A stretch of DNA of 45,000 nt, taken from contig JABRWB010000027.1 of the NCBI GenBank assembly GCA_039961635.1, positions 1 through 45,000 on the forward strand, given 5' to 3'. Shown piece by piece: positions 8,680 through 38,285 of the stretch. The notes beneath the pieces are model-generated. The model was not told the origin of the DNA and did not search any database. It was given only the letters and a program-made list of their open reading frames with translations. This DNA is from a bacterium. Lineage in GTDB: Bacteria > 4484-113 > JAGGVC01. The position numbers and the translations under genes were made by a program. The number at the start of each line of letters is the position of its first letter. Within the stretch, counting starts at the first letter, position 1.

Positions 8680-8730
8680 ATGCGCATTTCGGATATCCAA
8701 TATATGAATACCTAAATATAGGATGCGCAT
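8680..8730. repeat. Two ATGCGCAT palindromes 43 bases apart
   Basis: ATGCGCAT occurs at 8680-8687 and again at 8723-8730, close to four helical turns apart. Between them are the palindrome GGATATCC (8691-8698) and the inverted repeat CCTA/TAGG (8711-8722). The second copy abuts the Rex/CRP-like dyad. The spacing suggests paired binding on one face of the DNA. Confidence 0.45.
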
Positions 8731-8750
8731 ATGTGATTCAATTCACAAAT
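8729..8750. promoter_or_regulatory. Rex- or CRP-type operator of the redox operon
   Basis: The dyad has the form ATATGTGA-N6-TCACAAAT, with 7 of 8 arm positions symmetrical. Its core at 8731-8748 matches the Rex operator TTGTGAA-N4-TTCACAA at 12 of 14 positions. It equally contains TGTGA-N6-TCACA, the CRP core. It ends 43 bases before the first start codon, a repressor-like position. Rex is encoded at 32064-32762. No CRP-type regulator is seen here, though a CNB-cyclase protein is present. Confidence 0.6.
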
Positions 8751-8793
8751 AAGCATCGATTCGGTCCTTCCAAAGGTTGTTCCGGAGGCAAAA

Positions 8794-9405
8794 ATGAAGC
8801 GTAGTGAGTTGGCTGACGATCGGAGGCTTTCAACCGAAGATCAAAAGCGTCTTTCAAGGGAATTCCTTGAACACATTTACAGGCTGCCTGACGGCGAGCG
8901 AATCAAGCTATGCATCCAGTGCGGCACCTGCTCGGGTTCATGTCCGACCGCCGGAAGCATGGAGTTTTCTCCCAGGGAGATCATTGCCGCGTTGCGCGCG
9001 GGGATGCTCGACAGGGTGCTTCGCACGAACACCGTCTGGTACTGCACCAGCTGTTATTACTGCACGGTGCGTTGCCCGCAGAAGATCAAGTTCACCGACG
9101 TGATGTACGAGCTGAAGCGGCTGGGAATAATGTACGGGCTGTACCCCAAGGACTCCGGGGCGCCGATCTTGTCCCGGACGTTTGCAGAGCTAGTGGACCT
9201 TTACGGCCGCAATCCGGAAACGCTTTTGATGCAGAAATATTACTTCCGGGTTGGATTGCTTAAGGCGTTGGATAACGTTTCGATGGCGAAGGACTTGTAC
9301 TGGAAGGGCAGGCTTGGACTGGCGCCGAAAAAGATCAAGGGAACGGCTCAAATCCAGAAAATTCTCGCCCACGTCCTTTCTTACGAGGCGGAAGGAGATG
9401 CGTGA
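8794..9405 (+). CDS. hdrC: Heterodisulfide reductase subunit C-like iron-sulfur protein
   Basis: Cytosolic 203-residue electron carrier linking HdrA to HdrB. Two classic [4Fe-4S] motifs are intact: C40, C43, C46, C50 in CIQCGTCSGSCP, and C84, C87, C90, C94 in CTSCYYCTVRCP. The spacing and the helical remainder (FTDVMYELKRLGI) are typical of HdrC. GGAGG lies six bases before the ATG. It is the first gene of the ten-gene redox operon; its stop overlaps the next start (TGATG). Glycolate or succinate dehydrogenase-type iron-sulfur subunits are similar, but the following HdrB and HdrA make HdrC the best call. In methanogens the partner substrate is CoM-S-S-CoB; the bacterial substrate is unknown. 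Confidence 0.9.
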   Translation: MKRSELADDRRLSTEDQKRLSREFLEHIYRLPDGERIKLCIQCGTCSGSCPTAGSMEFSPREIIAALRAGMLDRVLRTNTVWYCTSCYYCTVRCPQKIKFTDVMYELKRLGIMYGLYPKDSGAPILSRTFAELVDLYGRNPETLLMQKYYFRVGLLKALDNVSMAKDLYWKGRLGLAPKKIKGTAQIQKILAHVLSYEAEGDA

Positions 9406-10340
9406 TGCGCGATAAAGGGAATGGCAAAATCCGGTTTCCGCGAAGCGAATACCTTTATTATCCCGGTTGCTCGCTTGAACACACCGGCCTGATGTACGAC
9501 ACGTCGGCGCGTGCCGTAATGAAAGCACTTGGCAGCAGCCTGAAGGAGCTGGATGACTGGAATTGTTGCGGCGCGACAAGCTATATGTCAATCCGCGAGC
9601 TCCGCGCCTTCGCCGTTTCGTCCAGGAACCTTGCCTTGGCCGAAATGTCCGGCGCGGACCAGCTTGTCACGGTTTGCAGCGCTTGCTTCACAACGCTGGG
9701 CAAGACGAACCGTTATTTCCGCGAGGACGCGACGCTTCGGGCGAGGATCAAGGATGCGCTTGCCGCAGCGGACCTCAAATACGACGGCAGCTTGGAAGTG
9801 CGGCACCTGCTTGACGTGATCGTCAACGACTTCGGCGTCGAAGAAGTCAAGAAGCGTGCAAAGCGCGGGCTGTCAGGAATGAAGGTCGCTCCGTACTACG
9901 GATGCCAGATATCGCGCCCTCACGGTACTTTCGATGATCCCGAAAACCCGTCCAGCTTCGATCCGATACTCTCCGCGCTGGGCGCGGACGTGCTGAGATT
10001 TCCGCTTCGCGCCAGGTGCTGCGGCGGCATGCAGATGATCACTTCTTCCGAAGCTGCCATTCCGCTCGTTCGAGATTTGCTTAAATGCGCCAAGGACGAA
10101 GGAGCGGAGTGCATAGTCTGCTTTTGCCCGCTCTGCCACGTCAACCTGGACTGCTACACCGGCGCGGTCGAAAGAAAGTTCGGTGAAAAATACGCAATAC
10201 CGATCATCTACTTCACGCAGGTGCTGGGGCTCGCGCTGGGGCTGTCCGCGAAGCAGCTCGACATAGGGAGGGAGCTTGTGGACACCAGCGCCTTCGTCGA
10301 AAAATACGCGGCCGAGGCCGCGGCGGGAGCAAGCGCATGA
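9405..10340 (+). CDS. hdrB: Heterodisulfide reductase subunit B-like, two CCG domains
   Basis: The 311-residue product has two cysteine-rich CCG domains, each binding a non-cubane [4Fe-4S] cluster in HdrB. Domain 1 has C22, C54-C55 and C91-x2-C94; domain 2 has C167, C205-C206 and C241-x2-C244. No ligand is missing, so disulfide-reducing chemistry looks preserved. I start at ATG 9405, which overlaps the hdrC stop by one base and has GGAG at good spacing; GTG 9402 is the alternative. It overlaps hdrA by four bases (ATGA), so translation is probably coupled. The likely electron acceptor is a disulfide or another partner enzyme; nothing here identifies it. Confidence 0.9.
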   Translation: MRDKGNGKIRFPRSEYLYYPGCSLEHTGLMYDTSARAVMKALGSSLKELDDWNCCGATSYMSIRELRAFAVSSRNLALAEMSGADQLVTVCSACFTTLGKTNRYFREDATLRARIKDALAAADLKYDGSLEVRHLLDVIVNDFGVEEVKKRAKRGLSGMKVAPYYGCQISRPHGTFDDPENPSSFDPILSALGADVLRFPLRARCCGGMQMITSSEAAIPLVRDLLKCAKDEGAECIVCFCPLCHVNLDCYTGAVERKFGEKYAIPIIYFTQVLGLALGLSAKQLDIGRELVDTSAFVEKYAAEAAAGASA

Positions 10341-11263
10341 GCGACGAAAAGTACAAGGGAAACGGAAGGAAGGGAAATGGAAAGGCTCTTCCCCGCGTTG
10401 GCGTTTTCGTCTGTCATTGCGGAACGAACATCGCGGGAACGGTGGACGTAGCGAAGGTCGTCGCTTACGCCGCCACTTTGCCCGGCGTCGTCGTGGCGAA
10501 AGAGCACAAGTACATGTGCAGCGATCCCGGCCAAAGCATGATCCAGCAGGATATCGAAGAGCACAAGCTTGATCGCGTGGTAGTCAGCTCCTGCTCGCCG
10601 CTGATGCATGAATCCACGTTCAGAGGCACGGTGGCGGATGCGGGGCTGAACCAGTTTCTGTTCCAAATGGCGAACATTCGCGAGCAATGCTCCTGGGTGC
10701 ACGAAGACCGCCAGCTGGCCACGCAAAAAGCGATGAAGCTCGTGCGAGCGGCGGTCGCAAGGGTGATTCACCACACGCCGCTTGAAATCAAGACCGTTCC
10801 GGTCAATCCCGCAACGCTGATCGTCGGCGGAGGAATCGCAGGAATCGAAGCTGCGCTCGCGCTAGGCAAGGCCGGACACCCAGTTTATCTTGTCGAGCGG
10901 GAGGCAAGCATCGGCGGCAAAATGGCCCAGTTTGACAAAACGTTTCCAACACTCGACTGCTCGGCCTGCATTCTAACGCCAAAAATGGTTTCAACCGCGA
11001 AAAACAAAAATGTGACTTTGTTTACTTTCAGCGAGGTCGAGGAAGTATCCGGCTATGTGGGCAACTTCAAGGTGAAGATACGCAAGAAGCCGCGAATGGT
11101 GGACGTGGACGCGTGCATCAACTGCGGAAGCTGCTGGCAGAATTGCCCGGCAAGCATCGCGCCGACCTCGCGCAGGATAAAAATCGGCGACCGCGTGATT
11201 AAAGAAAGAGTCGGGCACATGCCCGTCACTCCGATTGCGGCAGGAGGCGGAAAGGATGGCTAG
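10337..11263 (+). CDS. hdrA: HdrA N-terminal half (split flavin subunit)
   Basis: The 308 residues match only the first half of a usual HdrA of about 650 residues. The N-terminal [4Fe-4S] domain has C26, C28, C61 and C86. The thioredoxin-reductase-like FAD domain starts with GGGIAG (164-169), followed by the HdrA hallmark FPTLDCSACILTPKMV (C208, C211). The inserted ferredoxin then begins with C260, C263, C266 and C270, and the chain stops 38 residues later. The missing part, including the second ferredoxin cluster and the rest of the FAD domain, occurs at the end of the gene at 13605-15410. In the family the FAD is the bifurcation site, so both halves should assemble to make one flavin site. 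No frameshift remnant is seen at the end; the gene runs cleanly into nuoE with an eight-base overlap. Confidence 0.9.
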   Translation: MSDEKYKGNGRKGNGKALPRVGVFVCHCGTNIAGTVDVAKVVAYAATLPGVVVAKEHKYMCSDPGQSMIQQDIEEHKLDRVVVSSCSPLMHESTFRGTVADAGLNQFLFQMANIREQCSWVHEDRQLATQKAMKLVRAAVARVIHHTPLEIKTVPVNPATLIVGGGIAGIEAALALGKAGHPVYLVEREASIGGKMAQFDKTFPTLDCSACILTPKMVSTAKNKNVTLFTFSEVEEVSGYVGNFKVKIRKKPRMVDVDACINCGSCWQNCPASIAPTSRRIKIGDRVIKERVGHMPVTPIAAGGGKDG

Positions 11264-11771
11264 AGCGACTTACAATCCCGCAACGGTCAAGGACGAACTA
11301 GAGGAATTGTTGCGCGGTTACGAAGGCGACCAGTCCGAAGTGATTATGGTTCTTCAGGATATTCAGGACAAGTACAACTGGCTGCCCCGCGAAGCGCTTT
11401 CGTACGTCGCCCGCAAATGGGAAATACCGATGACCGAGCTTTTCCACATTGCGACGTTTTACAAGGCATTCAGCCTGAAACCGCGCGGCAAGCACATCTT
11501 GTACTTGTGCATGGGAACCGCCTGCCATGTAAGGGAAGCTCCGTTCATCCTTGATGCGCTGGAGCGCGACTTCGGAATCAGAAACCGCGAAACCACGCCG
11601 GACGGCTTGATCACGCTCGAAACCGTCAATTGCGTCGGAGCGTGCGCGCTGGGACCCATTCTCGTCGTCGACGGCGAGATGAAGGGAAACATGACCCAAG
11701 CGAAGGCGGGCGGAATAATCAAGAGGCTACGCAAGCAAAGCGCGGAGGAGGCCCAGGATGCCACGGCTTAA
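11256..11771 (+). CDS. nuoE: NuoE/HoxE-type [2Fe-2S] subunit
   Basis: A 171-residue thioredoxin-like subunit of NADH-oxidising modules. The [2Fe-2S] ligands are C85, C90, C126 and C130 (C-x4-C and C-x3-C). The helical N-terminus VIMVLQDIQDKYNWLP and MTELFHIATFYKAF is family-typical. I use ATG 11256, which has AGGAGG upstream and gives the usual N-terminus; ATG 11235 would add seven residues. It overlaps hdrA's end by eight bases and nuoF's start by 14. It probably transfers or stores electrons next to the FMN of the following subunit, inside the hydrogenase-Hdr complex and not in respiratory complex I, since no membrane subunits are present. Confidence 0.92.
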   Translation: MARATYNPATVKDELEELLRGYEGDQSEVIMVLQDIQDKYNWLPREALSYVARKWEIPMTELFHIATFYKAFSLKPRGKHILYLCMGTACHVREAPFILDALERDFGIRNRETTPDGLITLETVNCVGACALGPILVVDGEMKGNMTQAKAGGIIKRLRKQSAEEAQDATA

Positions 11772-13602
11772 CTCGATCGCGGAACTCGAAATCCATCGGG
11801 CGCAGGTAATCGAGCGGCAAAAGAAGCAGCACAAGGTAATCTCGCTATGCGCGGGAACCGGCTGCGAGGCCTGCGGATGCAAGGATGTACACATCAAGTT
11901 CGTGCAGGAATTGAACGCGCGCAATCTGAGCATCCCGGTCAAGCTAACCGGCTGCCACGGATTTTGCGAGCGCGGGCCGATAGTGATCATCCGACCGGCG
12001 AACACGATTTACTTCAAAGTTCGCCCACGCGACTGCGCGGAAATCATCGAAACCTCAATCGTCGGCAGCGGCGTAGTAGACAGACTTTGCTACACCGACG
12101 AAAACGGCAAGCCGCTTCCCGACGAGCACGATGTACCGTTTTACAAAGACCAGATGCGGATCGTGTTCGGTTTGAACGGTCTCGTCGACCCGATGGAGAT
12201 AGACGATTACATCGCGCAGGGCGGATACTCCGCGCTCGCAAAAGTTCTTTCAGGAATGGCACCCAAAGAAGTAATCGAGGAAATCAAAACGAGCGGGCTG
12301 CGCGGACGCGGCGGCGGCGGTTTCCCCACCGGACGCAAGTGGGAAACGTGCGCAAACGCCAAGGGCGAAAAGCGTTTTGTAATCTGCAACGCGGACGAAG
12401 GCGATCCTGGTGCGTTCATGGACCGCTCGATATTGGAAGGCAATCCCCACAGCGTCCTTGAAGGGATGCTGATCGCGGCGTACGCGATCGGCAGCAGGGA
12501 CGGATTCATTTACGTCCGGCACGAATACCCGAAGGCAGTTCGCACATTCGCCAATGCTTTGGCGCAGGCGGGAAAGTACGGACTTCTTGGAAACAACATC
12601 CTCGGCACCGACCTTTCGTTCGAAGTCGGAATCAACCGTGGGGGCGGAGCGTTCGTATGCGGTGAATCAACTGCGCTTATGGCCAGTCTTGAGGGCCGTG
12701 TCGGCGAGCCGCGGGCGAAGTACATACACACCGTTGAGCACGGGCTGTACAACCTTCCATCCAATTTGAACAACGTCGAAACATACGCGACGGTGCCGCA
12801 CATAATCAACAACGGCGCCGATTGGTTTACGAAACTCGGTACGAAAGGCAGCCCGGGAACAAAGGTGTTTTCGCTTGTCGGCAAGGTCAACAACACCGGG
12901 CTGATCGAAGTGCCGATGGGAATCACGCTTCGGGAAATCATTTACGGAATCGGCGGCGGAATCCAGAAAAACAAGGCTTTCAAGGCGGTGCAGACGGGCG
13001 GGCCATCCGGCGGCCTGCTGCCGGAAGGAATGCTCGACCTGCCCGTGGATTTCGACAAGCTGTGGGATGCCGGCTCGATGATGGGTTCCGGCGGAATGAT
13101 CGTCATCGACGAAAACAGCTGCGTAGTGAACATCGCGCGGTTTTTCCTTAACTTCCTTAAGGACGAAAGCTGCGGAAAGTGCATCCCGTGCCGCGAGGGC
13201 ATCCGATACATGATGGATATTCTGGAGCGGATCGAGCGCGGCGAAGGAAAGATGGAAGATATCGACACGCTTGAGGAAATGGCGCATACCGTGGCCGACA
13301 CTTCGCTGTGCGGCCTCGGAAGCAGCGCACCAAACCCCGTTCTCTCGTCGCTGACCTATTTCAAGGACGAGTATATTGCCCACATACAGGACAAAAAATG
13401 CCCTGCTGGTATCTGTAAGGAGCTGATCCAGTACCTGATCATCCCGGAATTGTGCAATGGGTGCGACGTTTGCGCTAAGCTTTGTCCCACAAAGGCGATC
13501 ACGGGAAAGAAGGATGAAGTGCACGTTATCGACACCAAACTTTGCGAGAAGTGCGGTGCGTGTCTTGAATCCTGCCCCAGCGAAGCGATCGTGAGGAGAT
13601 AA
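11758..13602 (+). CDS. nuoF: NuoF/HoxF-type NADH-binding flavoprotein
   Basis: The 614-residue FMN subunit exchanges electrons with NAD(H). It has an N-terminal [2Fe-2S] thioredoxin-like domain (C31, C36, C66, C70). The NADH/FMN core follows, with GRGGGGFPTGRKWE (about residue 182) and NADEGDPGAFMDR. The [4Fe-4S] motif ESCGKCIPCREG lies near 470. Two C-terminal [4Fe-4S] motifs follow (CNGCDVCAKLCP near 565, CEKCGACLESCP near 595). This long form is the one found in NAD(P)-linked hydrogenases such as HydB/HndC, not in complex I. The start overlaps nuoE by 14 bases. NAD versus NADP preference cannot be read safely from the sequence. Confidence 0.93.
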   Translation: MPRLNSIAELEIHRAQVIERQKKQHKVISLCAGTGCEACGCKDVHIKFVQELNARNLSIPVKLTGCHGFCERGPIVIIRPANTIYFKVRPRDCAEIIETSIVGSGVVDRLCYTDENGKPLPDEHDVPFYKDQMRIVFGLNGLVDPMEIDDYIAQGGYSALAKVLSGMAPKEVIEEIKTSGLRGRGGGGFPTGRKWETCANAKGEKRFVICNADEGDPGAFMDRSILEGNPHSVLEGMLIAAYAIGSRDGFIYVRHEYPKAVRTFANALAQAGKYGLLGNNILGTDLSFEVGINRGGGAFVCGESTALMASLEGRVGEPRAKYIHTVEHGLYNLPSNLNNVETYATVPHIINNGADWFTKLGTKGSPGTKVFSLVGKVNNTGLIEVPMGITLREIIYGIGGGIQKNKAFKAVQTGGPSGGLLPEGMLDLPVDFDKLWDAGSMMGSGGMIVIDENSCVVNIARFFLNFLKDESCGKCIPCREGIRYMMDILERIERGEGKMEDIDTLEEMAHTVADTSLCGLGSSAPNPVLSSLTYFKDEYIAHIQDKKCPAGICKELIQYLIIPELCNGCDVCAKLCPTKAITGKKDEVHVIDTKLCEKCGACLESCPSEAIVRR

Positions 13603-13604
13603 CG

Positions 13605-15410
13605 ATGAACGACACTCCAAACAACAAGAACGGCAAAGAAGAAAAACTGGTCACTTTCAGGATTGACGGGAAGGAGGTGACCGCGCCGGAGCGCAGCTTC
13701 CTTTTGAAGGCCGCCCGCGCGAACGGGATAGACATCCCGACGCTTTGCTATTACGAACACATCGAACCGTACAGCGTGTGCAGGATGTGCGTGGTGCAAG
13801 TCACGCGCAACGGCCGCCAGCGCATCGTGACCGCGTGCAATTTCCCGGTCCAGGAAGGAATTGTGGTCGAAACGCGCAACGAGAAAATTATCCAGCACCG
13901 CAAGTTGCTGATCGAAATGATGCTGGCGCGGCACAGCGAAGTGGAGGTCATAAAGAAGCTCGCGAAGGAATATGGAGTAACAAAAACGCGGTTCAAGTTG
14001 CAGCCGTCGGAGGAATGCATCCTTTGCGGGCTGTGCGTACGCGTTTGCAACGATCTCGTACAAGCTCACGCACTCTGCTTCGCGCAACGCGGCCCGGAGC
14101 GCTACGTGACGACGCCTTACGACGACTACGCGGACAATTGCATCGCTTGCGGCGCCTGCGTGCATGTATGCCCGACGAACCACATGAAACTGGAGCAGAC
14201 GGATGGCATAGAAATCCTGTATCCCGAAGTCACGCTCGGCCCGAACAATCCGATACACATCGATTTCATGCAAGCCGTGCCCGCCTCGCCCTGGATAGAC
14301 ACGGCAAGCTGTATTCACTTTCAGACCGACGGTTGCGGCGTATGCAGCGAAGTATGCCCGACGGATTGCATCCACTACGACATGCAGGACACCATCGAAG
14401 AAGTGGAAGTGGGCAACATCGTGGTCGCGTCCGGATTCAAGGGATTCGACCCGAAGCAGATGTACCAGTTCGGCTACGGGAAGCTTCCCCAAGTAATGAC
14501 GTCGCTCGAATTCGAGCGCGTTTCCAACGCGGGCGGCTCGACGGGAGGAAGGATTCTCACGCCGGACGGACGAAATCCGGAATCCGTTGCGATTTTGCAC
14601 TGCATCGGAAGCCGCGACAAGCATTACAACGAGTATTGCAGCCGCATCTGCTGCATGCAGTCGCTCAAGTTCGCGCATCTGATTCGCGAAAAGACCGGCG
14701 CCGAGGTTTACCAGTGCTACATCGACATGCGCTGCTTCGGAAAGGGATACGAAGAATTCTACAACCGGCTGCTTCACGAGGATGTTCACTTTATCCGCGG
14801 CAAGGCCGTGGAAGTAACCGATTATTCTCCGGACGGCCTGCCGCCCGGAAAGGTAATGGTGCGCGTCGAGGACACGCTCCTTGGAATCGTGCGCAAAATC
14901 CCGGTGGATATCGTAATTTTGTCCATCGGCCTGGAGCCCGCGGTCGGCGTGGATGTTTTGAAGCAAACGCTTAGAATTTCGCGCAGCCCTGACGGGTTCT
15001 ATCTGGAGCGTCATCCCAAGCTCGCGCCGGTCTCGACCGCGACGGACGGAATCTATATCGCCGGATGCGCGCAGGGGCCGAAGGACATCCCCGACACCGT
15101 CGCGCAGGCGAACGCGGCGGCCGCGGCGGTGCTTCAGGTCATTTCTCAAGGCCAAGTGACGCTCGAACCGACGACCGCGGAAGTGATGGAAGAACTTTGC
15201 ACGGGATGCCAAACCTGCTTGAGCGTATGTCCATACGATGCGATCCGCCGTGACGAGCAAAAAGAAAAAGCGGTCATCAATGACGCTCTTTGCAAGGGAT
15301 GCGGAACGTGCGTCGCCGCCTGCCCGAGCGGCGCGATCAAGCAGTGGGGATTCGACCGCGAACAGATAATGGCCGAAATCGACGCCGTGCTTGCCGAAGT
15401 GGCCGTGTAG
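13605..15410 (+). CDS. Fusion: HoxU/NuoG-like ferredoxin domain + HdrA C-terminal half
   Basis: The 601 residues combine two families. Residues 15-90 form a plant-type [2Fe-2S] domain (C48, C59, C62, C78), as in HoxU/NuoG. The following region, where NuoG binds its His-Cys3 [4Fe-4S] cluster, keeps a histidine (H110) but has no cysteines. Two [4Fe-4S] motifs come next (C138-C148 and C179-C189). From about residue 216 the chain is HdrA: PIHIDFMQAVP, the ferredoxin motif C236-x7-C244-x2-C247-x3-C251, VGNIVVASGFKGFDP, and the FAD-domain end TDGIYIAGCAQGPKDIPD. Two C-terminal [4Fe-4S] motifs close it (C532-C542, C563-C573). It supplies what the 308-residue HdrA lacks. Two bases separate it from nuoF. 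Confidence 0.9.
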   Translation: MNDTPNNKNGKEEKLVTFRIDGKEVTAPERSFLLKAARANGIDIPTLCYYEHIEPYSVCRMCVVQVTRNGRQRIVTACNFPVQEGIVVETRNEKIIQHRKLLIEMMLARHSEVEVIKKLAKEYGVTKTRFKLQPSEECILCGLCVRVCNDLVQAHALCFAQRGPERYVTTPYDDYADNCIACGACVHVCPTNHMKLEQTDGIEILYPEVTLGPNNPIHIDFMQAVPASPWIDTASCIHFQTDGCGVCSEVCPTDCIHYDMQDTIEEVEVGNIVVASGFKGFDPKQMYQFGYGKLPQVMTSLEFERVSNAGGSTGGRILTPDGRNPESVAILHCIGSRDKHYNEYCSRICCMQSLKFAHLIREKTGAEVYQCYIDMRCFGKGYEEFYNRLLHEDVHFIRGKAVEVTDYSPDGLPPGKVMVRVEDTLLGIVRKIPVDIVILSIGLEPAVGVDVLKQTLRISRSPDGFYLERHPKLAPVSTATDGIYIAGCAQGPKDIPDTVAQANAAAAAVLQVISQGQVTLEPTTAEVMEELCTGCQTCLSVCPYDAIRRDEQKEKAVINDALCKGCGTCVAACPSGAIKQWGFDREQIMAEIDAVLAEVAV

Positions 15411-15428: not shown

Positions 15429-15905
15429 ATGCCGACTCTTGAAGTGATGAATGCCGAGCCGAAAAACGCAAGCGACATTACGGGCCGGTTCGAGCCGAAA
15501 ATAGTCGCGTTTCTCTGTCTTTGGTGCAGCTACACTGGCGCGGATCTGGCCGGCACCGCGCGCATGAAGTACCCGCCCAACGTTGTGCCGATTCGCGTGA
15601 TGTGCAGCGGGCGGATCGATCCGGAGTTCATCTTTAAGGCGTTCGCCGAAGGCGCGGACGGCGTTGCCGTGTGCGGATGCCATCCCGGCGACTGCCACTA
15701 TATCGAAGGCAATTTCAAAACCATGGCGCGCATGCCCATAGTAAGCAAGTATCTGCAGCAGATGGGCATCGAACCGGAGCGCTTCCGCCTTGAATGGATC
15801 AGCGCCGCCGAAGGCGAGAAGTTCATGAATTTCGCAACCGAAATGACGGATGAGGTGCGCAGGCTGGGGCCGCTCAACTGGAAGGCCACGGTAAACGCGA
15901 AGTAG
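15429..15905 (+). CDS. mvhD: MvhD-like [2Fe-2S] linker subunit
   Basis: The 158-residue protein belongs to the hydrogenase delta-subunit family that passes electrons from the [NiFe] enzyme to HdrA. Conserved cysteines are C30 and C33 (FLCLWC), C59 (VMCSGRID), and C82, C84 and C89 (VCGCHPGDCHY). In the methanogen Mvh-Hdr complex MvhD docks on HdrA, which fits its place here directly after the HdrA C-half. AAGGAG precedes the ATG. The first 20 residues are a short non-conserved extension. It is nine bases from the small-subunit gene. Confidence 0.92.
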   Translation: MPTLEVMNAEPKNASDITGRFEPKIVAFLCLWCSYTGADLAGTARMKYPPNVVPIRVMCSGRIDPEFIFKAFAEGADGVAVCGCHPGDCHYIEGNFKTMARMPIVSKYLQQMGIEPERFRLEWISAAEGEKFMNFATEMTDEVRRLGPLNWKATVNAK

Positions 15906-15914
15906 GAGATCGAT

Positions 15915-16913
15915 ATGGCAAAGCTCAAACTTGGACTTTACTGGGCTGCAAGCTGCGGAGGATGCGAAATCGCGGTTCTTGAAATCGGCGATCGGATACT
16001 CACCCTTTTGGAGCATGCGGACGTCGTTTTCTGGCCGTGCGTGGCGGATTTCAAGTACAAGGACGTACAGGCCTACGACGACGGATACATGGACGTCTGC
16101 CTGTTCAACGGAGCCATTAGGAACTCCGAAGGAGAAGAAGTCGCGCAACTGCTGCGCAAAAAATCCAAGGTGCTTGTCGCATTCGGAAGCTGCGCCACGA
16201 AAGGGTGCATCCCGGCGCTTGCCAATCTTTATGGCAGGCAGGAGCTTTTGGACCGCGCATATCTGGAGTGCGAAAGCGTGGATAATCCCCAGAAGATTTT
16301 TCCCCAGACCGAAACCGCGGTTGCTGAAGGTAAATTGCACTTGCCCGAGTTCTACACGACGGTGCGGACGTTGGCCGACGTCGTGCCGGTTGATTATTTC
16401 CTTCCTGGTTGCCCGCCGGTCGCCGACAGAATCTGGGACGTCGTGCTGGCGATCGTCGGGGGCAATCTCCCTTCAGCCGGCAGCGTTGTAGGCGTAGGGG
16501 ACAAGGCGGTGTGCGACGAGTGCAAGCGGGAAAAACGCCAAGTCAAGATTACCAAATTTCACCGCCCGCACGAAATAATACCCGAGCCGGACTGGTGTTT
16601 GCTTGAGCAAGGCATTTTGTGCATGGGGCCGGCGACGCGCAGCGGATGCGGGGCATTGTGCCTGAACGCCGACATGCCCTGCCGCGGCTGTTACGGCCCG
16701 ACAGCGAACGAAGAAGATCAAGGCGCGGCGATGATGGGAGCCATCGGTTCGATTATCGACGCGAAGGATGACGACGCGGCGAAAGCGATAATCGACGGCC
16801 TGCCCGATCCCGCGGGATACTTTTACAGGTTCGGCATGTCCAAAAGTACGCTGCTACGCAGAAAATTGCGCAACAACGGCAAGCGGGAGGTTAAGATCGA
16901 GGTGCTAAAGTGA
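15915..16913 (+). CDS. mvhG: [NiFe] hydrogenase small subunit, MvhG-like
   Basis: The 332-residue electron-relay subunit carries the proximal cluster ligands C14, C17, C93 and C166 (SCGGC, GSCATKGC, PGCPP). Eight further cysteines fit two more [4Fe-4S] clusters: C200, C203, C228, C236, C245, C249, C256 and C259. There is no twin-arginine signal, so the enzyme is cytosolic as in group 3. The start has GGAG upstream; the end overlaps the large-subunit start by four bases. The F420-non-reducing (Mvh, group 3c) type is favoured by the adjacent mvhD and hdr genes. Group 3d enzymes have a shorter small subunit with fewer clusters, which argues against them. Confidence 0.93.
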   Translation: MAKLKLGLYWAASCGGCEIAVLEIGDRILTLLEHADVVFWPCVADFKYKDVQAYDDGYMDVCLFNGAIRNSEGEEVAQLLRKKSKVLVAFGSCATKGCIPALANLYGRQELLDRAYLECESVDNPQKIFPQTETAVAEGKLHLPEFYTTVRTLADVVPVDYFLPGCPPVADRIWDVVLAIVGGNLPSAGSVVGVGDKAVCDECKREKRQVKITKFHRPHEIIPEPDWCLLEQGILCMGPATRSGCGALCLNADMPCRGCYGPTANEEDQGAAMMGAIGSIIDAKDDDAAKAIIDGLPDPAGYFYRFGMSKSTLLRRKLRNNGKREVKIEVLK

Positions 16914-18391
16914 AAAAAGTCAGCATCGATCCCGTGACCAGGCTTGAAGGCCACGGCAAAATAGAGATTTTCCTCAACGACGACGGCAGCGTTGCGAACG
17001 CGTACCTGCAAATTCCGGAGTTGCGCGGCTTCGAGAAATTCGCCGAGGGCAGGCCGGTCGAGGAACTTCCCCGCATCACTCCGCGTATTTGCGGCGTATG
17101 CCCGGAAGCGCATATGATGGCTTCCGCGAAGGCGTGCGACGCGGTGTATCACGTCGAGCTGCCGTCCACCGCAAAGAAGCTGCGCGAGCTTCAATATTCC
17201 GCTTTTTATATTGGCGATCACACAACGCACTTTTACGCGCTGGGAGGCCCGGACTTCGTAATGGGGCCGGATGCGGACCCTGCCGTGCGGAACATCATCG
17301 GCGTCATCGGCAAGGTCGGAGTCGAAATCGGCAAGCAGGTCATCCAATGCCGAATCTGGTGCCACGAAGTTGCAAAAATCCTGGGCGGCAAGCCGGTCAC
17401 TCCGATAAACGCAATCCCCGGCGGAATGAGCAAGGGGTTGAACGCGGAAGAAGCCGCGCGCGTCCGCGAAATCGCGGACTTTTGCGTGGGTTTCGCGGAA
17501 TTCACGCTCAAGATCGTCCACGACGTCGTCCTTGCGAATAAAGCGTATGTGGATTTGATTCTATCCGATCCTTACACGCACGCAACGTACAACATGGGTC
17601 TGGTGGACGAAAACAACCACACGAATTTCTACGACGGCAAGGTGCGCGTAGTCGGGCCGGACGGCAAGGAGCACTGCAAATACGAGCCGAAGGATTACCT
17701 CAATTGGGTGGCGGAGCACGTCGAGCCGTGGAGCTATCTAAAGTTTCCGTTCCTCAAACAGATCGGCTGGAAGGGATTCACGGACGGGCTTGACAGCGGA
17801 GTATACAAGGCGACACCGCTTTCGCGAATCAACACGAGCGACGGGATGGCCACGCCCAAAGCGCAGGAGGCGTACGAGGAGTTTTACGATGTACTTACGG
17901 GCGACCGGTCCGGCAAGAAAAAGGTCAACCAGACGCTTGCAACCCACTGGGCGCGCGTCGTCGAGATAATGTACGCTGCGGAAAGGTTCCGAGAGCTCGC
18001 ATACGACGAGGAGATTACTGGCCCGAATTTCCGCGTCATTCCCACCGAGAAACCTGACGAAGGCGTCGGCATAGTCGAGGCGCCGCGCGGCACCCTGACT
18101 CACCACTATTGGACGGACGAGCGCGGCATCGTGAAAAAAGCCAACCTGATCGTGGGTACGACGAACAACAACGCACCCATTGCGATGAGCATCAAGAAGG
18201 CCGCGCAAGGTTTGATTCGGGCGGGCAGGGAAATAACCGAGCCGATGCTGAATATGATCGAAATGGCTTTCCGTGCGTATGATCCCTGCTTCGGGTGCGC
18301 TACTCACAGCCTGCCGGGGAAAATGCCGCTTGTGGTAACGCTGCGCGACCAGTCCACGGGCGAAGTAATCCGGCGGATCGAGAGGCTATAG
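16910..18391 (+). CDS. mvhA: [NiFe] hydrogenase large subunit, MvhA-like
   Basis: The 493-residue catalytic subunit splits or forms H2 at a NiFe(CN)2CO centre. The L1 motif RICGVCPEAH gives C61 and C64, and the L2 motif DPCFGCATH gives C460 and C463. All four Ni ligands are present. Twenty-seven residues follow His466 and would be removed by the maturation protease; that protease gene is next. The start VSIDPVTRLEGHG is standard. The gene order small-large-protease and L2 with CATH fit group 3c. The hyp genes needed for the metal site are not in the window and must lie elsewhere. Confidence 0.95.
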   Translation: MKKVSIDPVTRLEGHGKIEIFLNDDGSVANAYLQIPELRGFEKFAEGRPVEELPRITPRICGVCPEAHMMASAKACDAVYHVELPSTAKKLRELQYSAFYIGDHTTHFYALGGPDFVMGPDADPAVRNIIGVIGKVGVEIGKQVIQCRIWCHEVAKILGGKPVTPINAIPGGMSKGLNAEEAARVREIADFCVGFAEFTLKIVHDVVLANKAYVDLILSDPYTHATYNMGLVDENNHTNFYDGKVRVVGPDGKEHCKYEPKDYLNWVAEHVEPWSYLKFPFLKQIGWKGFTDGLDSGVYKATPLSRINTSDGMATPKAQEAYEEFYDVLTGDRSGKKKVNQTLATHWARVVEIMYAAERFRELAYDEEITGPNFRVIPTEKPDEGVGIVEAPRGTLTHHYWTDERGIVKKANLIVGTTNNNAPIAMSIKKAAQGLIRAGREITEPMLNMIEMAFRAYDPCFGCATHSLPGKMPLVVTLRDQSTGEVIRRIERL

Positions 18392-18416: not shown

Positions 18417-18902
18417 ATGGCGCGCACAATAATCGTCGGACTCGGCAACGACATTCTCTCGGACGATGCTGCGGGCATCCACGTCGCGCGAAGGCTCGCG
18501 CCATTACTTAAGGAAACGCGTGGTGTAGCGGTCGTCGAAGCTACGGTCGGCGGAATCAGGCTGATCGAGCTTCTTTCGGGATTCGACCATGCGGTCATCG
18601 TGGACGCCATTGTCCGTGAAAACGAGGCGCCGGGAACGATCCTGCGGTTTACCATGTGCGATTTTTCGCCGACTACGCGAACCGGCGCGTTGCACGACAT
18701 TGACCTGCCTACCGCACTGGAGATGGCAATGCGCATCGGCATGTCAATTCCTCACGAAATTGAGTTGATCGCGATTGTTGCGTCGGACGTTTTGACAGTC
18801 AGCGAGGAAATGTGCCCCGAGGTCGAGGCCGCGGTAAATAAGGTTGTATCGGGATTGGCGGACAGATTCGCCTCCTGGTCGGCTGGTAACCGGCTGAAGT
18901 AA
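18417..18902 (+). CDS. Hydrogenase maturation protease
   Basis: The 161-residue endopeptidase of the HycI/HoxW/HyaD family cuts the C-terminal tail of the large subunit after nickel insertion. It starts with IIVGLGNDILSDDAAG, holding the GxGN motif and the first metal-binding Asp. VEATVGGIRLIELL and HAVIVDAIV contain the second Asp region, and IPHEIELIAI the conserved His. It begins 25 bases after mvhA and is the last gene of the operon; no intrinsic terminator follows. A weak TAACCT box six bases before its ATG could give an extra leaderless transcript, but this is uncertain. Confidence 0.9.
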   Translation: MARTIIVGLGNDILSDDAAGIHVARRLAPLLKETRGVAVVEATVGGIRLIELLSGFDHAVIVDAIVRENEAPGTILRFTMCDFSPTTRTGALHDIDLPTALEMAMRIGMSIPHEIELIAIVASDVLTVSEEMCPEVEAAVNKVVSGLADRFASWSAGNRLK

Positions 18903-32063: not shown

Positions 32064-32762
32064 TTACTCAAGCTTTGACGGCCTGTATGCGCCCGGATGA
32101 GTGATGTAAAAGCTGATGACTTCCAAGTGAGTGGTCAAGTCCACGGGCACATAGACCACATCCGGCGGAATTTCCAGCGCGACCGGCGCGAAATTCAAAA
32201 TTCCCTGTATTCCGTTGGCGACGAGAAGGTTCGCGATGAACTGCGCGGACGTCAACGGAACGGCGATTATTCCGATCGCTATTTCCTGGTGACTTTGAAG
32301 ATACTCCTCAAGATTGAACACGCTCTGTATGTAAAACTCCTCCAGCTGCCTGCCGATCTTGTCCGGATCGCTGTCGAAAACCGCGCAAATTTCGAATCCC
32401 TTGTCCAGGAATCCCCGATAATGCACAAGCGCTCTCCCCAGGTTGCCGGCCCCAACCACGATGGTTTTGTGTTTTCTGTTAAGCCCGAGTATGTGCCTGA
32501 TTTCGCGGCGGAGTATCGGAATTTCGTATCCAACGCCGCGGGTTCCAAATTCGCCGAAATAAGACAGATCCTTTCTGACCAGGAAGCTGTTTATTTTGGT
32601 TTCTTCGGACAACTCGGCGCTGGAAATGTTGCTGACGCCAAGCTCGTCCAGCTTTTCGACAACGCGCAAATATTGCGTAAGCCTGGTAATCGTGCTGTAC
32701 GGAATCTGGTCAAGATCCACGTTCCGCTTGCGCTTTACCGGAGTAGTTTCTTTGGACGACAT
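32064..32762 (-). CDS. rex: Redox-sensing repressor Rex
   Basis: The 232-residue repressor senses the NADH/NAD+ ratio; NADH releases it from DNA. An N-terminal winged helix (about residues 15-85) shows IPYSTITRLTQYLRVVEKL and KINSFLVRKDLSYFGEFG. The Rossmann domain has TIVVGAGNLGRALVHY and the C-terminal swapped helix VDLTTHLEVISFYI. AAGGGGG lies before the ATG. It is the third gene of mutL-menG-rex. A Rex-type site lies before the redox operon at 8731-8748, which is a natural target because that operon contains an NADH-linked hydrogenase. Confidence 0.95.
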   Translation of the reverse strand: MSSKETTPVKRKRNVDLDQIPYSTITRLTQYLRVVEKLDELGVSNISSAELSEETKINSFLVRKDLSYFGEFGTRGVGYEIPILRREIRHILGLNRKHKTIVVGAGNLGRALVHYRGFLDKGFEICAVFDSDPDKIGRQLEEFYIQSVFNLEEYLQSHQEIAIGIIAVPLTSAQFIANLLVANGIQGILNFAPVALEIPPDVVYVPVDLTTHLEVISFYITHPGAYRPSKLE

Positions 32763-37076: not shown

Positions 37077-38285
37077 TTGCAGAAGAAAATTGCCGAGCTA
37101 ACGCCCCGGGAAATCGCCCGCGAGCTTTTGTCGTTCGATATCTTCGCGGACTTGACCGGCGAAGACCTGCGCGACCTCGTTTCAAAGGTTAAGGTGGTCG
37201 CCCCGCCGGACGGAGAGTACATCCTCCACGAAGGCCAGCCATCCACGAAAATCCATTTCATTTACCACGGGCGCGCGGACGTGTTCAAATCCATCGGTCC
37301 GAGGCGCCTCAAGATCGCATCCCTCGGCCGGGGCGAGTTCTTCGGCGAGATCGGCATAATCCTGCAGTGCCCAGCGACTGCGACCGTCCGCGCGAAAAGC
37401 GATTTGATCCTGTTCACCGTTGAAGGCGATGTGCTTTTGGACTTTATGGATCGCTACACGAGCATATTCTTTCGTCTCTTCCGGATAAGCTCGGAGCGCT
37501 TGTCCAACAACAACCTGTTCCAGATTCGGAACCTTGTCGAGGAGCTGGATTTTTATCTGAAAAGGTTCATGAATGTTCAGGACATCTGGCACTTTCTCCC
37601 AAGCGATCTGGTGGTGCGCGCCTTGCAAGGCGACATGTCCGAGGCGATGAAGGCGCGGCAGGAATTTTTGACGGTTCTGTTTCTGGACATCCGCCACTAC
37701 ACGATTTTCGCGGAATCGCACAATCCCGATGAAGTATTGGCCGAGCTGAACAAGCTGATGGGAAGGTTCGCGCGCGTGATAAACCGGCATCGCGGGCAAG
37801 TTGACAAGTTCCTTGGCGACGGGCTAATGGCGGTATTCAAGCGCGAGAGCGGCAAGCGGGCGAACGCCGCCAACGCGGTGCGCGCGTCGATCGACATAAT
37901 GAAAGAGCTGCGCGAGCACAACAGGGAGCGCGCAAGGTGGCTGGAAGAGGAATTCTACGTGGGGATCGGCCTGGACAGCGGGATAGTGACATTCGGCAAC
38001 GTGGGGGTGCAGAGCCAGGTAATGAACTCGACAGTGATAGGCGACACCGTTAACGTAGCGTCCAGGCTGGCTTCTTTCGAACGAAACAACCGTGTGATTC
38101 TTACCGAGGCGACGTGGAAGCTGGCCAAGCCGGAGCTGAAAGGCGTCAAGTTCACGCCGAAGGAGGAGGTGACCCTGGCGGGACGGCTGCGAACCGTAAA
38201 CGTCGTGCGAATCGACACTTCCGCCACGTGGGAGGGAGAGTACAAGCGCGAGAGGGCCGCGGCGCTAAAGGAAGAGCAGGCCTAA
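37077..38285 (+). CDS. Class III nucleotide cyclase with N-terminal CNB-like domain
   Basis: The 402-residue soluble protein joins a cyclic-nucleotide-binding-like domain (about residues 18-130) to a class III adenylate/guanylate cyclase domain (about 195-378). The catalytic set looks complete: metal-binding D204 (FLDIRHYT) and D248 (KFLGDG), K244, and D323, N327 and R330 in [10 protein letters not shown]. In the CNB domain FFGEIGII is kept, but the phosphate-binding Arg of the 'PRxAT' motif is Ala100 in CPATATVRA. Ligand binding may be lost or changed. K244 and D323 favour ATP over GTP. The start is TTG 37077, supported by a promoter and GAGGTG. It overlaps the convergent SDR gene by four bases. 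Confidence 0.9.

Follow-up and report, generated by a model that had tools for sequence, protein, structure and literature searches.

A predicted Rex operator before an Hdr/[NiFe] hydrogenase operon and its recurrence before homologous bacterial operons

The Hdr/[NiFe] hydrogenase operon described here is preceded by a dyad, ATGTGATTCAATTCACAA (positions 8731 to 8748, forward strand), that is very probably the operator of the Rex protein encoded at 32064 to 32762, which would repress the operon when NADH is low and release it when NADH binds. Both lie in the window, by which we mean the whole stretch of 45,000 nucleotides that was analyzed. The more interesting part of the result is the recurrence of such dyads before Hdr/Mvh operons in many other, distantly related bacteria. 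The dyad fits the operators of two regulator families with a common spacing, Rex and CRP, and the ambiguity between them appears to be settled as far as sequence can settle it.

Direct reading of the window confirmed what the earlier note had described: ATGTGATTCAATTCACAA matches the Rex pattern TTGTGAA-N4-TTCACAA at 12 of 14 positions (two mismatches) and contains the CRP core TGTGA-N6-TCACA. There is one mismatch to the shorter pattern TTGTGA-N6-TCACAA. Positions 8729 to 8750 read ATATGTGATTCAATTCACAAAT, a 22-bp palindrome of which the outer extension is weak. The two mismatches, at positions 1 and 7, are both in one half, and the left half-site, ATGTGAT, is as much like CRP as it is like Rex. 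Confirmed S. aureus Rex sites quite often deviate at positions 1 and 7, and the most important positions are 4 and 5 (PMC2883068). The mismatches of the window's dyad fall at positions that real Rex sites tolerate.

From the end of the dyad to the ATG at 8794 there are exactly 45 bases, the distance given earlier, and that ATG has a GGAGG ribosome-binding site at 8785 to 8789 (forward strand). This would be a repressor position. No recognizable sigma-70-type promoter was found around the window's own dyad, and the repressor position is clearer in G001, the nearest relative and a genome of the same family, where the corresponding dyad lies 9 bp 5′ of a TATAAT. An 8-bp palindrome, ATGCGCAT, occurs twice just 5′ of the dyad, at 8680 to 8687 and 8723 to 8730, 43 bases apart; the window holds four copies versus 1.3 expected, and the palindrome could belong to a second regulator.

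No other match of this kind occurs in the window. Dinucleotide shuffles of the 45 kb gave 0.13 matches to the 14-position pattern and 1.10 to the 12-position pattern, and about 10% of the shuffled windows held a 14-position match that was equally good. The bare string is not improbable in 45 kb and is weak evidence. When A or T was required at positions 1, 7, 12, and 18, the window's dyad was the only perfect match in the 2.78-Mb genome. What takes the dyad beyond chance is its place and its recurrence before homologous operons.

Profile searches gave the operon order as hdrC-hdrB-hdrA′-nuoE-nuoF-[nuoG/hdrA″]-mvhD-mvhG-mvhA-protease, with every gene on the forward strand. The first gene is hdrC-like (8794 to 9405; TIGR03290, 5.4e-24, under the curated cut-off) and the second is hdrB-like (9402 to 10340; TIGR03288, 1.7e-57, under the cut-off). 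Hdr and Mvh matches under curated cut-offs are expected because the models are those of methanogens and the genes are bacterial relatives. There follow the N-terminal part of hdrA (10337 to 11263; positions 1 to 258 of the 777 in the HdrA2 profile; NF040770, 2.5e-111), a nuoE/hoxE-like gene (11235 to 11771), a gene for a nuoF-like NADH-binding subunit (11758 to 13602; TIGR01959, 3.8e-142), and a nuoG/hoxU-like N terminus fused to hdrA positions 239 to 642 (13605 to 15410; NF040770, 5.9e-127, and NF005745). The remaining genes are mvhD-like (15429 to 15905; NF045873, 1.6e-38), mvhG-like, for the [NiFe] hydrogenase small subunit (15915 to 16913; NF045875, 2.4e-66), mvhA-like, for the large subunit (16910 to 18391; NF041785, 3.8e-118), and, probably last, a gene for a hydrogenase maturation protease (18417 to 18902; PF01750). 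Judged by these matches, the operon encodes an Hdr/[NiFe] hydrogenase that includes an NADH module.

HdrA is split in this operon (10337 to 15410): its N-terminal part, profile positions 1 to 258, is encoded 5′ of nuoE, and the rest, positions 239 to 642, is encoded 3′ of nuoF, behind the nuoG/hoxU-like domain. A split HdrA is also found in G001, G004, G006, G010, G063, G129, G137, G143, G292, and G305, which represent several families.

The proposed reader of the dyad is encoded on the reverse strand at 32064 to 32762, 23.3 kb from the dyad, in agreement with the 23 kb given in the earlier note. The protein matches NF003995 over the cut-off (2.2e-75) as well as PF06971 and PF02629, and it aligns with the Rex chains of solved structures (3ikv/3il2 and 3ikt) at E values of about 1e-54. 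Its GAGNLG motif is intact, and its 20-residue recognition segment is almost identical to that of the solved chains. These features make it a canonical Rex, one that has both the DNA-binding and the NAD(H)-binding domain. Another contig of the same genome (L132 1581 to 2435; G000, contig C12) encodes a further, divergent protein of the Rex type (31% identical). This paralog has both Rex domains and a recognition segment, ILSPTIRKDFSLHLAAEGIRGKGY, that differs from the canonical one; it was found in this genome and in G001, the family's two genomes.

Dyads of the same type stand before homologous operons. In G001, TTGTGAACCTGTTCACTT lies before hdrC, 66 bases 5′ of the ATG; it is more Rex-like than the window's dyad, and the intergenic DNA around it is otherwise little similar. 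An additional dyad, TTGTGAATTAATTCAAAT, lies further upstream. Twelve of the 29 homologous Hdr operons had a dyad (≤2 mismatches) within 250 bp of the first gene, whereas the expected count for 29 operons had a mean of 0.40 (maximum, 4) in 300 dinucleotide shuffles and 0.42 (maximum, 3) with 59 permuted half-sites; the 29 operons are not all independent, some sharing a family, and the first gene of four operons was redefined after the gene order had been seen, the count being otherwise 9 of 29 versus 0.37. The other 17 operons, several of them in Rex-bearing genomes, had no dyad within 250 bp. Every one of the 11 dyad-bearing genomes that have a handle encodes Rex, and 4 of the 11 non-dyad genomes lack it (400 bp upstream, one row per genome; one-sided Fisher, 0.045, calculated by hand).

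The dyads before these operons include TTGTTAAATTCTTAACAA (G010b), TTGTGAATAGTATCACAT (G016), and TTGTGATATAATTCACAT (G381), and tandem pairs of dyads, 22 to 23 bp apart, occur in G308 and at a Chloroflexi locus (L056). The operon of G004 starts with a MerR-type gene and those of G021 and G308 start with an Rrf2-type gene (both types read from sequence), the dyads lying 5′ of these regulator genes. In G010a (L068 4768 to 5999), a locus of a distant genome, rex itself opens the hdr-nuo-mvh operon, 4 bp 5′ of hdrC, and the operon is preceded by a TTGTTA-type dyad, ATGTTAAAAATTTAACGA; G010 is 59% complete, which weakens its entries. G305 has a perfect Rex consensus, TTGTGAAACTATTCACAA (L145 7641 to 7658), that is inside the hdrC coding region and not before it.

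The earlier note had also pointed to other redox genes of this genome as places for the same dyad, and dyads do precede cydA and the genes for 3-hydroxybutyryl-CoA dehydrogenase, isocitrate dehydrogenase, and citrate synthase. Several of the dyad-preceded genes belong to classes that Rex classically controls; the whole list, picked post hoc from many matches, is supporting evidence only. The 3-hydroxybutyryl-CoA dehydrogenase gene has a TATAAT 10 bp after its dyad. Rex-type dyads precede citrate synthase in all four genomes of the class that were examined (this one, G001, G004, and G006; L086, L087, L112, and L123), nuoA in three f4 genomes (G004, G006, and G009), alanine dehydrogenase and butyrate kinase in G004 and G006, and PFOR in G006. 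No cydA homologs were obtained from the relatives, and that comparison was uninformative. A dyad at this genome's nuoB (L104) was dropped because it is internal to nuoA-nuoB, with nuoA ending just upstream, and because G001 is without it.

We did not use the genome-wide count as evidence: the pattern gave 85 loose matches versus 22 for the reversed pattern, but extrapolation from the window shuffles gave about 68, and most of the 85 are probably due to chance. Loose matches elsewhere are mostly inside genes. A stricter genome-wide count, 13 versus 0, is better evidence, but many of these sites are also inside genes. One dyad, CTGTGAACAGCATCACAA, is identical on three contigs of this genome (G000 C26:2988, C46:3025, and C79:344), in two cases close to the end of a contig of 3 kb, and the copies are probably a repeated element.

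Instead of Rex, a protein of the CRP/FNR family (CRP, HcpR, or a relative), responding to a cyclic nucleotide or another signal, could use the dyad as an activator or repressor site. We take HcpR to be a member of that family with an operator that shares the TGTGA-N6-TCACA core. The core is that of CRP, the TGTGAT of the left half-site is CRP-like, and the window encodes, at 37077 to 38285, a nucleotide cyclase fused to an N-terminal cyclic-nucleotide (cNMP)-binding domain. The earlier note had held that sequence alone could not choose between Rex and CRP, and that the cyclase kept CRP control possible. The first point stands for the cores, which are identical in sequence, but the comparative evidence favors Rex. 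The second is much weakened: the cyclase fusion is without a DNA-binding domain, and a search for CRP/FNR-type proteins found no HTH_Crp_2 match over the cut-off in this genome or in G001. The weak HTH_Crp_2 matches of this genome that were read from sequence were GntR/MocR-type (L016), MarR-like (L017), Rrf2-like (L018), and GntR/YtrA-like (L019). Three proteins of this genome have cNMP-binding domains, and all are without an HTH; apart from the cyclase they are 219 and 171 residues long. Given that the genome is 96% complete, it is possible but unlikely that a CRP/FNR gene was overlooked. In addition, both half-sites in G001 are of the Rex form (GAA-N4-TTC). Among 22 genomes, CRP-type proteins were missing from 5 of the 11 with the dyad and from 5 of the 11 without it; this equal absence, combined with the co-occurrence of dyad and Rex, indicates that the dyad tracks Rex and not CRP. 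Because no CRP/FNR protein was detected, the sister site is of Rex form, and the dyad tracks Rex, we now consider control by a CRP/FNR-family protein very unlikely.

It is about equally improbable that the dyad is read by the divergent paralog on contig C12, alone or in competition with the canonical Rex. The paralog's two Rex domains and its presence in both genomes of the family would allow this, but its recognition segment departs from that of canonical Rex, and dyad-bearing relatives, G004, G016, and G381 among them, each show a single Rex-domain protein. Nor do we give much credence to a chance palindrome with no regulatory role. The frequency of equally good matches in shuffled windows and the chance-like look of most loose genome matches would agree with such a palindrome, but the position of the dyad, its conservation in the sister genome, and its recurrence (12 of 29 versus 0.4 expected) speak against it. 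The canonical Rex, which the earlier note had proposed as the reader, is supported by the sites at orthologous positions, the Rex-type set of targets, the rex gene within the G010 operon, and the co-occurrence of dyad and Rex.

With the canonical Rex as reader, a Rex dimer would occupy the dyad when NADH is low relative to NAD+, lying over or next to the hdrCBA-nuoEF-mvhDGA promoter and blocking transcription. Accumulating NADH would bind Rex and take it off the DNA, and the derepressed operon would then produce the NAD(H)-linked, flavin-based Hdr/[NiFe]-hydrogenase complex, which would dispose of excess electrons, most likely as H2. Here we infer Rex binding, the response to NADH, the position of the promoter, transcription as a single operon, and the direction of the enzyme. 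Induction at high NADH would favor H2 disposal over H2 uptake as the role of the complex. If this is true, the Hdr/[NiFe] hydrogenase of an uncultured lineage is switched on once a shortage of electron acceptors has let NADH accumulate.

Considering the homologous operons together, we are inclined to think that NADH-responsive Rex control is widespread and has been repeatedly kept in bacterial HdrABC/Mvh-type [NiFe] operons of many families, including Chloroflexi and including split-HdrA operons with an NADH module, and that tandem operators, or a first gene that is rex or encodes another regulator (Rrf2 or MerR), reinforce it at some loci. A description of such widespread control was not found in the literature searched, nor did a search combining Rex with heterodisulfide reductase turn up a paper on control of this kind. 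Bacterial clusters of Hdr and group 3c hydrogenase have been noted, and the function of the Hdr/Mvh complex in such bacteria has been described as open (PMC5317091). The recurrence of the operator across families provides a rule, which can be tested, for the direction in which bacterial Hdr/Mvh complexes run physiologically.

The operators of CRP and HcpR have their core, TGTGA-N6-TCACA, and their spacing in common with the window's dyad. Unlike in those systems, no CRP/FNR-family protein was detected in this genome, and the site in the sister genome, like the set of target genes, is of Rex type. A Rex operator before a redox operon is a familiar kind of switch, of which we have here a well-supported further case. 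Rex operators of the form TTGTGAA-N4-TTCACAA are known from S. aureus, S. coelicolor, Caldicellulosiruptor bescii, and the regulons described by Ravcheev et al. 2012 (cited through PMC6391272), and the window's dyad is like them in lying near a start codon, with a redox operon downstream and a rex gene in the genome. The general Rex consensus is given in PMC6391272, as is the finding that Rex controls hydrogenases in a taxon-specific manner. The reported hydrogenase targets are FeFe, Ech, and CODH/ECH, whereas the predicted site in the window precedes an Hdr/[NiFe] (Mvh-type) operon that includes an NADH module and belongs to a lineage that has been little studied. A close parallel to the 18-mer itself is in Caldithrix abyssi, in which a nearly identical site, cTGTGAATCAATTCACAt, has been proposed as a Rex site before an NAD-dependent bifurcating hydrogenase operon (PMC5317091). 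As in the window, that site is near the first gene, and the hydrogenase is NAD linked. However, the Caldithrix operon (Cabys_3675-3679) begins with rex and encodes an [FeFe] hydrogenase, whereas the window's rex lies 23 kb from the dyad and its hydrogenase is Mvh-type [NiFe] plus Hdr. The rex-hdrCBA arrangement of G010 is closer to that of Caldithrix than the window's is.
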